From positions 186,001 to 250,000 of the forward strand of contig NZ_JANYGQ010000033.1 of NCBI RefSeq assembly GCF_025359345.1: a stretch of DNA of 64,000 bases. Reading direction: 5' to 3'. The notes below the pieces were generated by a model. That model was not told the DNA's origin and searched no databases. It saw nothing but the letters and a program-made list of their open reading frames with translations. Positions 34,487-42,999 of this stretch are shown here, one piece after another (position 1 is the first letter of the stretch; every line of letters starts with the position of its first letter). The position numbers were made by a program, and so were the translations under genes. Source of the stretch: Mucilaginibacter sp. (lineage in GTDB: Bacteria > Bacteroidota > Bacteroidia > Sphingobacteriales > Sphingobacteriaceae).

Positions 34487-35779
34487 ATGGATCAATACTT
34501 TATTATAGATTTCGACAGCACCTTTACACAGGTTGAGGCTTTGGACGAACTGGCCCGCATTTCACTGAGACACCACCCCGACCGCGAAATCATATACAAA
34601 CAAATAGAAGACTTAACCAATGCCAGCATGGAAGGCCGGCTGTCTTTTACCCAAAGTTTGGAAAATCGGGTTAAACTTCTGCAAGCCAACCGCGAGCATC
34701 TGAAGCAATTAATTACTCACTTAAAGAAAAAAGTTTCCACGTCGTTTAGCCGTAATACCGTATTTTTCAAAAATCATGCAGATGAAGTACTGATTGTGTC
34801 AGGCGGATTTAAGGAATTTATAATACCTGTGGTAACTGAGTACCACATAAAAAAGGAAAATATTTACGCCAATACCTTCGTGTTTGATGCCGATGGTAAC
34901 ATTATCGGCTACGACCGCGAAAACCCGCTAAGCCAGGAGGGCGGCAAGGTTAAGCTGCTAAAAGAATTAAACTTACCGGGCGATATATACGGTATAGGTG
35001 ATGGCTATTCGGATTTTCAATTGAAAGAATCTGGAATGATTAAGAAGTTTTTCGCTTTCACCGAAAATATCGAGCGCAAATCCGTTGCGGAAAAAGCCGA
35101 CCATATTACACCCAGTTTCGACGAGTTTTTGTTTATCAATAAGTTGCCGCGGGCAATATCATACCCTAAAAATCGCATTAAATGTTTGGTGGTGGGCGAT
35201 GTAGAGGAAGAGGCCCTGGCTCAAATGAAAAAGGAAGGCTATAACATCCGCCATCGTGATAGCATAGACGAAAAATACCTTGAAGAAGCCGGCATATTAT
35301 TTTGTGACGAGGCACATCAGCCTACGCCGGACCAAGTGCAAAATGCAGGCCGGTTGAAGGTAATCGGTATTTTCGGTAGAATAAATAGTCGCAAACTTGC
35401 CGAAACTGCATGCGAAAACGGCGTTATCATTTTTGACGACCCCAAGAACAATCCGCGTAATGATGACTTTATCCCCAAAAGGGTAATGGCATTTATGAAC
35501 GAGGGAAAAACCCATACCAGCTGCAATTTCCCAGATTTGCAGCCGCCGCGCGTAAGCAATGCACACCGCTTAATACACATTCACAAAAACGTGCCGGGTA
35601 TATTGGCTAAAATCAACGACGTGTTTGCCCGTCACAATATTAATATAGTAGGCGAGTTTTTGGTGACCAACCCGCAAATAGGCTACGTTATCACCGATGT
35701 TAACACAGGATATGATACAGAAGTGTTAAACGAATTGAAAGCGATAGAACATACCATTAAGTTTAGGTTGCTATATTAG
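34487..35779 (+). CDS. phosphoserine phosphatase fused to a SerA remnant and ACT domain
   Basis: The 430-residue protein has an N-terminal HAD phosphatase domain (1-215) with every motif: DFDST nucleophile at residues 8-12 (Asp8, Asp10), VSGGF, a GGK lysine and GIGDGYSD. The middle (about 225-345) resembles the substrate-binding half of 3-phosphoglycerate dehydrogenase (ENGVIIFDDPKNNPR, RLKVIGIFGRI) but the NAD-binding Rossmann core is missing. The C-terminus (about 355-430) is a SerA-type ACT domain (HRLIHIHKNVPGILAKIND). It should hydrolyse phosphoserine and may be controlled by serine; dehydrogenase activity is not expected. The gene stands alone, 463 bases after pyk. Confidence 0.85.
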   Translation: MDQYFIIDFDSTFTQVEALDELARISLRHHPDREIIYKQIEDLTNASMEGRLSFTQSLENRVKLLQANREHLKQLITHLKKKVSTSFSRNTVFFKNHADEVLIVSGGFKEFIIPVVTEYHIKKENIYANTFVFDADGNIIGYDRENPLSQEGGKVKLLKELNLPGDIYGIGDGYSDFQLKESGMIKKFFAFTENIERKSVAEKADHITPSFDEFLFINKLPRAISYPKNRIKCLVVGDVEEEALAQMKKEGYNIRHRDSIDEKYLEEAGILFCDEAHQPTPDQVQNAGRLKVIGIFGRINSRKLAETACENGVIIFDDPKNNPRNDDFIPKRVMAFMNEGKTHTSCNFPDLQPPRVSNAHRLIHIHKNVPGILAKINDVFARHNINIVGEFLVTNPQIGYVITDVNTGYDTEVLNELKAIEHTIKFRLLY

Positions 35780-39079: not shown

Positions 39080-39913
39080 ATGAAAGCATATATCCCCTAC
39101 ATTGCCTATAGCCTGCTTTTACAGGCAACAACTTTACGGCTAAACGCCCAGCCAATTACAACGTTACAAGCTCCGCCCACTAATATTATGATAGATGGCT
39201 CCATCAAAGAGTGGGGCGATAGCCTGCGGTATTATAATACCGAAAAGCGGATTAACTATGCCATTGCCAACAGCAAAGACACCTTATATATGGCCATGCG
39301 TGTTAACGATCGTAGCGAGCAAATCCGAATATTAAAGGCCGGTGCTACCTTCAGTATTAACACCAAAGGGAAAAAGAAAGAAAGCTTTAGTATTACATTT
39401 CCGCTGGCAACAAACGGAAATGTATCGCCATTAAATCCCCCAACAGATGGCGATGGCAAGCAAAATCATGAGGCCTTAATGCAGGCTGTTTTGACCGTGT
39501 TGCGCGGTATAAAAGCCGATGGCTTTAAGGATATTGAAGATGATATGATTACCACCAGCAACACTTATGGTATAAAAACAGCCTTGGATTACGACGATAA
39601 GGGTTACCTTGTTTGTGAAGCAGCTATTCCGCTTGCGCTTTTTCACGCAGCAGCCGATGCAGAAAAAAACGAATGGGCATTCAACTTTAAAATAAACGGC
39701 ATAACCAAGCCTGCAACGCAGGGCGAAGGAGAGGGCGGTGGCCGCGGCGGCCGCGGTGGCGGTGGAATGGGTGGCGGAAGTCGTGGAGGTCACGGCGGCG
39801 GTGGCGGCAGAGGGAGCCGTGGCGGAGGTACGGGGGGCGCCGGCGGAAGCTCAGACCGTAGTGCATTGTTTGCATCTGAAGATTTTTGGGAGAAGTTTTA
39901 TTTGTCGAAATGA
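39080..39913 (+). CDS. secreted protein with CBM9-like domain and Gly/Arg-rich tail
   Basis: The 277-residue protein has a signal peptide (1-24, ending LNAQ). A beta-sandwich follows (about 30-110, IMIDGSIKEWGDSLRYY and DTLYMAMRVND) resembling family 9 carbohydrate-binding or related domains. A second beta part runs to about 210. Residues 215-257 are almost only Gly with regularly placed Arg, Ser and one His, then a short hydrophilic C-terminus. I do not recognise the whole protein. The tail could be disordered, adhesive or matrix-associated. GC content rises sharply in that stretch. A good terminator follows. Confidence 0.75.
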   Translation: MKAYIPYIAYSLLLQATTLRLNAQPITTLQAPPTNIMIDGSIKEWGDSLRYYNTEKRINYAIANSKDTLYMAMRVNDRSEQIRILKAGATFSINTKGKKKESFSITFPLATNGNVSPLNPPTDGDGKQNHEALMQAVLTVLRGIKADGFKDIEDDMITTSNTYGIKTALDYDDKGYLVCEAAIPLALFHAAADAEKNEWAFNFKINGITKPATQGEGEGGGRGGRGGGGMGGGSRGGHGGGGGRGSRGGGTGGAGGSSDRSALFASEDFWEKFYLSK

Positions 39914-40006: not shown

Positions 40007-41008
40007 TTAACTGCTTATCCCCACCCGCGTCGCTTCAAAAATAAACCAGGCGTTGAGCAAGAGGTAACAGCCCAGCAAAACCTGGGCACTAATAAAATCG
40101 AACCTTTGCGATTTGGCCAATTCGTTGCGTTTAACAAGTTTTAGCGACCATGCTGTACAAATGATAACTGTGAGGATAAAGAACAGCGTAATTCCATGCA
40201 GCATATCAACTAAAGTAAATGTGGTTGATTCGGGCAGCGATGAGTCTACAATATATTTATTACCGATGACAGCAAATAGTGCTCCTACGCTTAATCCAAA
40301 ACGAGAGTCGATACTGTCGGCATGGATATAAAAGCACATATAGGCAATCAGGAAGGCCACGTACATGCCGAGGAACATTTTCCAGAACAATCCCATTGCC
40401 GCCCGGTCGATTTGCACCCTTACTTTGAAGTTGCTGTATTCGGTATGGGGCTTTGGTTGGCTGTCATCGCCAAACGCTGTTTCATATTTTTTTATGCCGG
40501 TTGAAATGTCGAGGCTGTCTATATCCCATCCCCTTAATGTAAAACGGGGATCGAAATGCTTGCCCAGTGTGTCGGCGGCAAACACCAGCGATTTGGAATC
40601 ATACTGTGAGTTTTCGATGGAAAAGCGAAGTTTTTGCTTGTCGAACGGAAAATTATTAACCGCCCACGAATCTTTCATCACACACTGAAGTTTCATCAGC
40701 AGGTATATTTTATTGTCGGATGAATCGACGGTTGAATAGGAGGTAATGACAGACTTTGCCTGCGGCACCTCCAGGTTATGCAGAAAATCAAAACTCTTGT
40801 TCTTGTATTTTAGCCACAACCAAAGGGTAATGTTATACTCTTTATCTTTAAAATTGATGTCGTGAATGCTGGTGATGTAAACGCCGGTGCGTACCGTGTC
40901 GGGATGTTGGGCGAATACTGTTGAATAGGACAGCAACAACATCGCCAGCGTAGTTGCAGCAATAAACTGTTTCACAATTAGTTTTTTAACTTTTAGCTGA
41001 AGTGGCAT
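40007..41008 (-). CDS. pentameric ligand-gated ion channel (Cys-loop family) homologue
   Basis: The 333-residue protein has the layout of prokaryotic pLGICs: signal peptide (1-34), a beta-rich extracellular domain (about 35-200) and four membrane helices at about 208-229, 234-255, 264-290 and 308-327. The family hallmark FPFD lies at 120-123 in a loop without the animal cysteine pair, as in other bacterial members. An Arg (residue 202) lies at the junction before the first helix. The second helix (RFGLSVGALFAVIGN) would line the pore. It lies alone on the minus strand. Ligand and ion selectivity are unknown. Confidence 0.82.
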   Translation of the reverse strand: MPLQLKVKKLIVKQFIAATTLAMLLLSYSTVFAQHPDTVRTGVYITSIHDINFKDKEYNITLWLWLKYKNKSFDFLHNLEVPQAKSVITSYSTVDSSDNKIYLLMKLQCVMKDSWAVNNFPFDKQKLRFSIENSQYDSKSLVFAADTLGKHFDPRFTLRGWDIDSLDISTGIKKYETAFGDDSQPKPHTEYSNFKVRVQIDRAAMGLFWKMFLGMYVAFLIAYMCFYIHADSIDSRFGLSVGALFAVIGNKYIVDSSLPESTTFTLVDMLHGITLFFILTVIICTAWSLKLVKRNELAKSQRFDFISAQVLLGCYLLLNAWFIFEATRVGISS

Positions 41009-41124: not shown

Positions 41125-42999
41125 TTATTCCACCACTCTTACTTTCAAAAAGCTTGGGTTTGCCTTTGATGTGTAAACCCGGTGTGTTGCTTTTTTAAAG
41201 GCAGCGCTGTCGCATTTCATAATATCCACAAAAGTTTGCGGGTTGCGGTCAATCAGTGGGAACCAGGTGCTTTGTACCTGCACCATTATTTTGTGGCCTT
41301 TTTTAAAGGTATGTAATACATCCTGCAGTTCCCAATTTACCGGGGTAACTTTGCCCGGGGTAAATGGTTCCGGTTTTTCAATTGAGACACGATACTTGCC
41401 GCGGATAGGCTCGCTGCGCACCATTTGCTGGTACCCGGCCATCTTTACGTCCTTGCCGGTAAATTTATTGTTGCTGGCGGTATCAGGATAAACATCCAAA
41501 ACTTTCACCACAAAATCGGCATCGGTGCCGGTAGTTGATACTTTTAGGTTTGCCCAAATGTTGCCGGCTATAGTAACGTCCTTGTCCAGTACATCTGTTG
41601 TATAGTTTAGCAAATCTTTACGGTCGGCTAAAAAGCGTTGGTCGGCGGTCATGTATTCGCGGTCCATGTCCATGCTTTTATGATTCAGGAACGGTATCGG
41701 GTTGCTAGGATCTGATACATATTCATCATAACTCTCTTTGCTGTCTGCAGGGGCATTAAACGACAGTTTCCCGCCGGGCAGTAGATACAGTTGCTTTTCT
41801 TCGGCCTCTTTTGGTGGCCAGGTTTTATACTCTTTCCATTTGTTTACGCCCGTTTCAAAAGTATTGACCGGGGCAATGTTCATATCTGTACCTTTCAGGT
41901 AATGACTAAAGAATTTAAATTCGATATCGTCCCTATAATGCGGGCCGGTTGGGCCGCCAAAATCAACGTCGCCCAGGTGGTCGCCTGCGCCGCGTGCCCA
42001 GCCGCCGTGTACCCACGGGCCCATGGCAAAGTAAATTGGTGTTTTAGGATTTCGCTTTACCAGTGTTTTGTAGGTGTTTATAGCACCGTATAAATCCTCG
42101 GCATCGTACCAGCCGCCCGTAACTAACACAGCGGTTTTAATATCGTGCAGGTGATATAACACATTGCGGTCTTTCCAATGCTGGTCGTAATCCGGGTGGT
42201 CCATCATTTCGTTCCACAGGCGGATGGTATCTTTATAATACTTGTCGTTGGTGTTTTTCATTGGACCCATCTTCAAAAAAAAGTCGTATCCGTCATTAGT
42301 GCCCGGGTTAAACCGACCGCCGCGACGTTGGGTTGGTTTATCATCCTGCTTGTTGGTAAAACCTGGGTAAAACCCAAAGTTGGCTACCAAAAAGAATGCA
42401 CCATTGTGCCAGCCGTCATCGCGCCATAAATCAGACATAGGCGCCTGGGGTGATGCCGCTACTAAAGCCGGGTGGCGGCTTAACAAGGCAGCGGTTGTAT
42501 AAAAACCAGGGTACGATATACCCCAAACACCCACTTTCCCGGTATTGTTCGGTATGTTTTTTAGCAGCCAGTCGATGGTATCGTAAGTGTCGGTGCCTTC
42601 ATCAACATCGGTATTGCTGCTGTGGTCTTCCTTTTCGGGCATCATTTCCTCAAACATACCTTCGCTCATATAGCGGCCGCGCACATCCTGGTAAACAAAA
42701 ATATAACTGTCGTGCATAAAGGCAGGGGAAGGACCCAGGTTGCCTTTATACTTATCGGCGCCGTATGGGCCCACGCTGTAAGGGGTCCGGTCCATCATAA
42801 AAGGATATTTCTTCGATTGGTCCTTAGGTACGTAAACCGAAGTGAACAGCTTTTTGCCATCACGCATCGGGATTTGATATTCGTATTTTGTGTAGTTGTC
42901 CTTTACGTACGTGGCTTCGGCGTTGTTGCCGCTTGGCTGGGCGAAGGTTATGGAGGCTAAAAGCGTAAAGCAAAAAGCAAGAAGTAAAAGTTTTTTCAT
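41125..42999 (-). CDS. CocE/NonD family hydrolase (X-Pro dipeptidyl-peptidase-like)
   Basis: The 624-residue protein has a signal peptide (1-20, ending TFAQ), an alpha/beta-hydrolase domain and a C-terminal jelly-roll domain. The nucleophile Ser sits in GVWGISYPGFY, near residue 170. An Asp in GGWYDAEDLYGAIN and a His in MGPWVHGGWARG complete a plausible triad. Family members include cocaine esterase, glutaryl-7-ACA acylase and alpha-amino acid ester hydrolases; the natural substrate here is unknown. It is predicted to be periplasmic, and lies downstream of pgk but separated by a terminator. Confidence 0.93.
   Translation of the reverse strand: MKKLLLLAFCFTLLASITFAQPSGNNAEATYVKDNYTKYEYQIPMRDGKKLFTSVYVPKDQSKKYPFMMDRTPYSVGPYGADKYKGNLGPSPAFMHDSYIFVYQDVRGRYMSEGMFEEMMPEKEDHSSNTDVDEGTDTYDTIDWLLKNIPNNTGKVGVWGISYPGFYTTAALLSRHPALVAASPQAPMSDLWRDDGWHNGAFFLVANFGFYPGFTNKQDDKPTQRRGGRFNPGTNDGYDFFLKMGPMKNTNDKYYKDTIRLWNEMMDHPDYDQHWKDRNVLYHLHDIKTAVLVTGGWYDAEDLYGAINTYKTLVKRNPKTPIYFAMGPWVHGGWARGAGDHLGDVDFGGPTGPHYRDDIEFKFFSHYLKGTDMNIAPVNTFETGVNKWKEYKTWPPKEAEEKQLYLLPGGKLSFNAPADSKESYDEYVSDPSNPIPFLNHKSMDMDREYMTADQRFLADRKDLLNYTTDVLDKDVTIAGNIWANLKVSTTGTDADFVVKVLDVYPDTASNNKFTGKDVKMAGYQQMVRSEPIRGKYRVSIEKPEPFTPGKVTPVNWELQDVLHTFKKGHKIMVQVQSTWFPLIDRNPQTFVDIMKCDSAAFKKATHRVYTSKANPSFLKVRVVE

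Follow-up and report, generated by a model that had tools for sequence, protein, structure and literature searches.

Which kind of protein is encoded at 40007-41008 on the minus strand of the 64,000-nucleotide stretch of Mucilaginibacter DNA analyzed here (the window), and what might it bind and conduct? The original prediction took it for a prokaryotic relative of the Cys-loop receptors, i.e. a pentameric ligand-gated ion channel (pLGIC), a superfamily of which, to our knowledge, only a handful of bacterial members have been studied functionally. A pLGIC in the Bacteroidota is not new as such, having been reported since 2004, when three ART-LGIC versions were mentioned by Tasneem et al. (PMC549065) from Cytophaga hutchinsonii, a member of the same phylum, one of the three being described there as having simple architecture. 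That paper was the only one found in the open-licence literature for Cys-loop receptors together with Cytophaga; nothing on these channels in Bacteroidota was evident from title or start of abstract among the matches listed, and no open-licence paper joined Mucilaginibacter with a ligand-gated ion channel. The present analysis goes beyond the original prediction in two respects: the protein belongs to a branch of the superfamily that is largely missed by Pfam, and this branch retains the carboxylates of the amine site of ELIC.

Identity of the protein

A scan of 84,980 species genomes found 132 relatives; the 80 best were kept and, together with the window, make up the tight group of 83 orthologues (83 open reading frames in 81 loci) used throughout. 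Forty-seven orthologues, 60–79% identical to the window protein, were chosen for alignment and with it form a narrow profile of 48 sequences (A1). The parts of the gene and protein are as follows.

40007-41008, minus strand: open reading frame of the pLGIC homologue, ATG start, 333 aa
40910..41008, minus strand: signal-peptide-like N terminus, residues 1-33 (by eye)
40400..40909, minus strand: predicted periplasmic ligand-binding ectodomain, residues 34-203 (best PF02931 stretch 93-176; beta strands of the model)
40769..40771, minus strand: E80 in the loop A region, aligned with ELIC E77 and invariant in 83/83
40640..40651, minus strand: FPFD Pro-loop (beta6-beta7), residues 120-123, invariant in 83/83 orthologues and free of cysteine
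40604..40615, minus strand: loop B, E132-N133-S134-Q135, with E132 aligned with ELIC E131 (alignments)
40433..40486, minus strand: loop C, Y175-x-T-x-F-G-D ... Y191-S192, a branch signature (alignments of orthologues and distant relatives)
40325..40396, minus strand: M1 helix, residues 205-228 (model; the usual M1 proline is G214)
40238..40312, minus strand: M2 pore helix, residues 233-257, containing DSRFGLSVGALFAVIGNKYIVD (model and alignment)
40130..40213, minus strand: M3 helix, residues 266-293 (model)
40013..40120, minus strand: M4 helix, residues 297-332 (model)

The features on which the original prediction was built were all recovered. A signal-peptide-like N terminus is present in the translation, judged by eye, and is the least conserved part among the 83 orthologues, with 0 of its 33 positions invariant. 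The ectodomain is beta-rich, strands of the model running from residue 38 to 202, and FPFD stands at 120-123 without the cysteine pair: the disulphide that would flank the Pro-loop is absent, residues 110-224 of the window protein are free of cysteine, and the ectodomain has just one cysteine, C109, conserved in 78 of 83 orthologues. Four membrane helices are seen both in the translation and in the model, joined between M3 and M4 by a link of only about 3 residues, and the second helix (233-257) is predicted at the place of the pore-lining M2.

Profile searches also placed the protein in the superfamily. The Pfam profile Neur_chan_LBD (PF02931) matched with 26.4 bits, 0.4 bits over its curated cut-off of 26 (E 5.4e-6), with no match to Neur_chan_memb (PF02932) at E up to 1, and NCBIfam TIGR00860 and NF033918 matched at E 1.1e-13 and 2.4e-12, both below their curated cut-offs. 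Against PDB sequences the best E was 3.7e-12, or 3.1e-17 with the 48-sequence profile, and the 60 matches listed of 161 were pLGICs or pLGIC chimeras; among those listed the top single match was a GLIC-glycine receptor chimera, with GLIC the best natural bacterial match. An AlphaFold2 model built from the 48 sequences (pLDDT 84.2, pTM 0.67) had a beta-sandwich followed by four helices. Foldseek ranked a glycine receptor first (E 2.8e-20, TM 0.77), followed closely by GLIC entries, and the best VIA-align match was GluCl (Z 23.9, rmsd 2.3, 283 residues), with GABA-A receptors, glycine receptors and GLIC-GABA-A chimeras within 1 Z of it. The model matches these structures over nearly all of its mature length at Z about 23–24. 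Whole-length matching at this level extends to animal glycine, GABA-A and GluCl receptors in spite of only 12–18% identity (rows shown). Cys-loop cysteines, a long M3-M4 loop and a loop B aromatic are features of the animal receptors, and the window protein has none of the three.

The most conserved pLGIC residues were tabulated by Jaiteh et al. 2016 (Table 1, PMC4795631), where the Pro-loop motif is [F/Y]PxD with Pro at 100%, the M1 position is Pro in 77% or Gly in 5%, and the M2-M3 loop Pro is found in 88%. The residues in that table are all present in the window protein and are met by most relatives. F120, P121, F122 and D123 occur in 83/83 orthologues, and P and D in 21/21 distant relatives; the beta9 core aromatic is W161 in 83/83 and W in 17, F in 3 and Y in 1 of the distant relatives; the pre-M1 arginine, R202, which would form a salt bridge to the Pro-loop Asp, is invariant in the 48 A1 sequences and found in 21/21 distant relatives; P259 of the M2-M3 loop is found in 83/83 and 19/21; and the M1 position is G214, the minority Gly form as opposed to the usual Pro. 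Superfamily membership and a predicted four-helix pore domain are thus demonstrated by sequence and fold prediction together, and on these grounds and the conserved residues the window protein is almost certainly a pLGIC homologue.

Genomic setting

The nearest named relative of the window protein is 84% identical in the best segment. In the 4 closest of 6 orthologue pairs computed dN/dS was approximately 0.02–0.06, the other 2, which are those including the window protein, being saturated in dS, and the channel reading frame is under strong purifying selection. A gene for a CocE/NonD-type hydrolase lies on the same strand at 41125-42999, with its stop 116 bases before the start of the channel reading frame. 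Convergent with the channel gene is a reading frame at 39080-39913 (plus strand) for a secreted-looking protein of 277 aa with a Gly/Arg/Ser-rich C-terminal part, for which a Pfam scan at E up to 1 gave no family. Elsewhere in the window, at 34487-35779 (plus strand), there is a protein of 430 aa with an N-terminal HAD phosphatase domain (SerB-like by eye) and a C-terminal ACT domain, with no Pfam match in the approximately 180 residues between the two.

It had been remarked at the outset that no adjoining gene hints at a ligand, and Pfam scans of orthologue neighbours bore this out. When 857 reading frames from 81 loci (the window stretch and 80 others) were clustered, no neighbour family recurred in more than 7 loci. 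In the Pfam scans (E up to 1e-5) the most frequent family upstream, an Hsp70/MreB-like protein, turned up in 5 of the 70 neighbours scanned, and the most frequent one downstream in only 3 of 67. These scans covered 70/81 upstream and 67/81 downstream references, with repeated rows of L097 and L103 removed by hand; rows omitted were L039, L060, L064, L068, L070, L076, L084, L099 and L108 upstream and L039, L043, L048, L049, L064, L084, L090, L092, L095, L096, L099 and L108 downstream, many of them, not all, near-duplicates of rows retained. Gene neighbourhood was accordingly rejected as a guide to the ligand, no neighbour being conserved.

Relatives and their detection

Named hosts among the best 80 of 132 relatives were mostly Sphingobacteriaceae (Mucilaginibacter, Pedobacter) and Chitinophagaceae. 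A match was found in 29 genomes of a 201-genome sample of the host family, strong in 27, in 49 of 300 genomes sampled from the order, and in 22 of 395 Bacteroidota genomes sampled from the phylum; matches in G031 and G074 (E 3e-4 and 6e-4) and in G081 (27 profile positions) were too weak or too short for membership. Presence was patchy even within the genus, at 17 of 35 genomes. Further afield, distant relatives occur in other Bacteroidota, and tblastn recovered distant members on plasmids of Azospirillum (8 records) and Streptomyces (2 records), with E values as low as 1e-36; searches with one Azospirillum and one Streptomyces protein recovered the same ten. In a tree, 12 close rows grouped together (100/99), apart from GLIC and ELIC; distant rows were long-branched and their branching order is not trustworthy. 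The 21 distant relatives used for comparison below include seven from one genus and hence are not independent.

There were other channel genes of note. The window's own genome also encodes a divergent second pLGIC belonging to this branch (L002, contig C37, 15693-16553), 23% identical to the window protein and matched by the profile at E 3.4e-30, which adjoins a reading frame resembling, by eye, an ABC-transporter permease subunit. Two orthologue loci hold tandem channel-gene duplicates (L103, 6010-8088, and L097, 4869-6918), and the products of these could form heteropentamers. Spread by phage was considered as well: a search of 50,697 phage records gave no match (E up to 0.01), and the 17 pattern matches in viral contigs contained 0 relatives of the channel, so a mobile or viral origin via phage is unsupported.

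Detection by Pfam was poor among the distant members. All 8 scanned failed the Pfam pLGIC cut-offs, one of them, from Streptomyces, going unmatched even at E 0.1, and the Neur_chan_memb match to distant member L157 was weak (E 0.016, below cut-off). That the distant members are nonetheless real pLGICs rests on their sequences, namely the Pro-loop P and D and the pre-M1 Arg in 21/21 and the M2-M3 Pro in 19/21. In the same 395 Bacteroidota genomes there were 22 carriers by the family profile and only 2 by PF02931, a comparison that overstates the gap because the first look of the whole-genome search is stricter than hmmscan. Run with PF02931 on the window's own genome, this kind of search missed the window protein itself and gave no match in the control genomes either, and that run is uninformative on absence; in the 395-genome search the control likewise matched in 0 of 14 genomes. 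The genome found by both profiles, G609, has a member (L159, not among the 8 distant members scanned) that passes PF02931 when neighbouring matches are summed (29.9 bits). The other PF02931 hit, in Bacteroidota genome G480 (L163, E 3.5e-13), is a pLGIC of another type. On the strength of the 22 carriers against 2, the data suggest that Pfam-based counts of prokaryotic pLGICs are too low in Bacteroidota; the distant members may be covered by resources other than Pfam.

Candidate binding site

ELIC, from Erwinia chrysanthemi (PDB 2vl0), is the natural comparison for the pocket. Crystals of ELIC soaked in bromopropylamine located the amino group close to E77 and E131, and according to the same account alanine mutants of E77, E131, F133, Y174, F187 and I79 lost the cysteamine response; F133, Y174, F187 and I79 are assigned to the principal side and F19, Y38, V40, R91 and N103 to other parts of the pocket (Zimmermann and Dutzler 2011, PMC3119659). 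Alignment with GLIC and ELIC, which had been proposed as a check on the original prediction, matched both carboxylates of the ELIC amine site. The pairing of E77 with E80 and of E131 with E132 was agreed by MAFFT, HMMER with a wide profile and hhalign; with the narrow profile A1, HMMER likewise matched E131 to E132 but left the ELIC E77 stretch uncovered. Near E80 the alignment crosses a gap of approximately 20 residues, owing to the compactness of the ectodomain and its lack of a W-x-P motif.

The likeness to ELIC includes the fold, Pro-loop, pre-M1 Arg and an Asp in M3 and, in the pocket, the two carboxylates and the pairs F19-Y44, Y38-W63, Y174-Y175 and F187-Y191, with V40-W65 and R91-S92 also aligned; the proteins differ at F133-S134, I79-P82 and N103-L104. 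Nine of the 11 ELIC pocket equivalents are invariant in the 83 orthologues, compared with 39 of 168 ectodomain positions (hypergeometric 3.4e-5, or 4.3e-4 without Y44 and W63), in a test that takes positions as independent and for conservation that may be partly structural. The aromatics Y44, W63, W65, Y175 and Y191 and the carboxylates E80 and E132 are invariant in 83/83. Two of the nine invariant positions differ from ELIC, F133 being replaced by S134 and I79 by P82, and the cage therefore differs from that of ELIC. The loop B aromatic is absent, S134 occupying its place in 83/83, and for this reason the window protein is not classed as an ELIC-type receptor. It also differs from ELIC in having no W-x-P, a shorter beta2-beta3, an extra T-x-F-G-D in loop C and a Gly-rich M2, and by the wide profile ELIC (82 bits) is no nearer to it than GLIC (97 bits).

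The same pocket is recognizable in the distant relatives. In 21/21 of them positions 80 and 132 are acidic and both W65 and G180 are conserved; Y175 is kept in 20, an aromatic Y or F stands at position 191 in 19, and D181 is matched by D or E in 18. Acidity in at least 19 of the 21 is confined to four ectodomain columns, E80, E132, D146 and D123, the last being the universal Pro-loop Asp. The acid pair is absent from L163 and from GLIC (Gloeobacter, PDB 3eam), which has R and I at the positions of E80 and E132 and a loop C without the G-D motif. By an ungapped count from the Pro-loop, PDB chains 6fl9_A, which we take to be sTeLIC, and 9ftg_A, presumably a DeCLIC-type channel, have D at the loop B acid position; the triggers of sTeLIC and of the DeCLIC-type channel are pH and calcium. 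The loop B acid alone was therefore dropped as a mark of an amine receptor.

Pore

M1 and M2 are the best conserved segments of the protein, and in M2 12 of the 25 positions are invariant in the 83 orthologues. Numbered by alignment to GLIC in the usual M2 prime scheme, the residues facing the pore are D at -2', R at 0', G at 2' and 6', F at 9', G at 13', Y at 16' and D at 19', with N-K at 14'-15'. G242, F245, G249, N250, K251 and Y252 are invariant in 83/83; Gly occupies 2' in 80/83 and 6' and 13' in 83/83 each; R236 at 0' is invariant among orthologues; and -2' is acidic in 80/83 (D in 75, E in 5, G in 3). What most sets the pore of the close family apart is Gly at 2', 6' and 13' together with aromatic rings at 9' and 16'; in GLIC the 2' and 6' rings are T/S. 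Distant relatives keep this pore only partly, with G at 6' in 11, F at 9' in 13, G at 13' in 8, K at 15' in 8 and Y at 16' in 10 of 21.

Discussion

The channel would, as we predict with high confidence, be assembled as a homopentamer in the inner membrane with the ectodomain facing the periplasm, and the protein is very probably a pLGIC subunit whose interface pocket would serve as the binding site. The ligand would sit at the interface of neighbouring ectodomains, held between the aromatic cage (Y44, W63, W65, Y175 and Y191) and the carboxylates E80 and E132, the spot at which agonist amino groups are held in ELIC. Loop C would move on binding and pull via a coupling zone formed by FPFD, R202 and the M2-M3 loop, so opening a cation pore gated by the rings of 9' Phe and 16' Tyr. 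An acid pair with an aromatic cage suggests, without being proof, that the ligand is a cation, most simply an amine, and the likeliest class would be small cations, primary amines in particular. Because one of the two acids also occurs in two further bacterial channels of solved structure, we put assignment to the small amines, made from sequence, at somewhat below an even chance.

An alternative explanation, possible but on balance doubtful, is that the same channel is gated by metal or pH, the acidic pair (with D146 or D181) binding calcium or titrating as in DeCLIC or GLIC. Two conserved acids and the G-[DE] of loop C would suit a cation site, the loop B acid recurs in 6fl9_A and 9ftg_A, and no conserved neighbour gene points to amine metabolism; but a pure metal site would not need a cage of five aromatics invariant in 83/83, and proton-gated GLIC lacks both acids. 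The preferred reading, a small cationic ligand, may be carried further. The branch, broad and largely missed by Pfam, extends through several Bacteroidota families and onto plasmids of Alphaproteobacteria and Actinomycetes; the pocket shared by nearly all its members, with acids at 80 and 132, W65 and Y-x-T-x-[F/Y]-G-[D/E] in loop C, could mean that one small cationic ligand class gates the whole branch, a rather unlikely generalization as matters stand.

Regarding the pore, cation selectivity is probable judging from the residues lining M2, the acidic -2' ring pointing that way as in GLIC. Selectivity for anions has some basis in the invariant R236 at 0', given that glycine receptors have R there (as was also seen in the alignment of PDB sequences), and in the GLIC-glycine receptor chimera as best PDB sequence match among those listed. 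It is nevertheless unlikely, as anion channels have Pro at -2', where 80/83 orthologues are acidic, and R at 0' is found in ELIC too, a cation channel. It is also conceivable, though very improbable, that the protein is shaped like a receptor but conducts nothing and signals otherwise, or that its pore carries something other than small ions, and the unusual pore, with Gly at 2', 6' and 13' where GLIC has polar or larger rings and with F9' and Y16', would fit this, as would G214 at the M1 proline position; the conservation of M2, however, argues for a working pore, and dN/dS is low.

In the cell such a channel might be used as a receptor for an outside or periplasmic solute. Bacterial members were proposed as chemotaxis receptors by Tasneem et al. 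2004 (PMC549065), an idea with which one locus fits: on plasmid pAB510b of Azospirillum sp. B510 (L161, 4779-10723) a distant member annotated as a hypothetical protein directly precedes genes annotated as chemotaxis protein CheW, an MCP four-helix-bundle protein and a mechanosensitive channel, and the fit applies to Azospirillum sp. B510 only. The pAB510b record also holds a second match to the query.

For the family, the finding means that a conserved branch is at hand in named Mucilaginibacter and Pedobacter strains as an alternative to ELIC and GLIC, and the conserved acid pair makes the question of its ligand concretely testable. If a single small cationic ligand class does gate the branch, amine-gated channels would be common in bacteria and not the curiosity of one plant pathogen.
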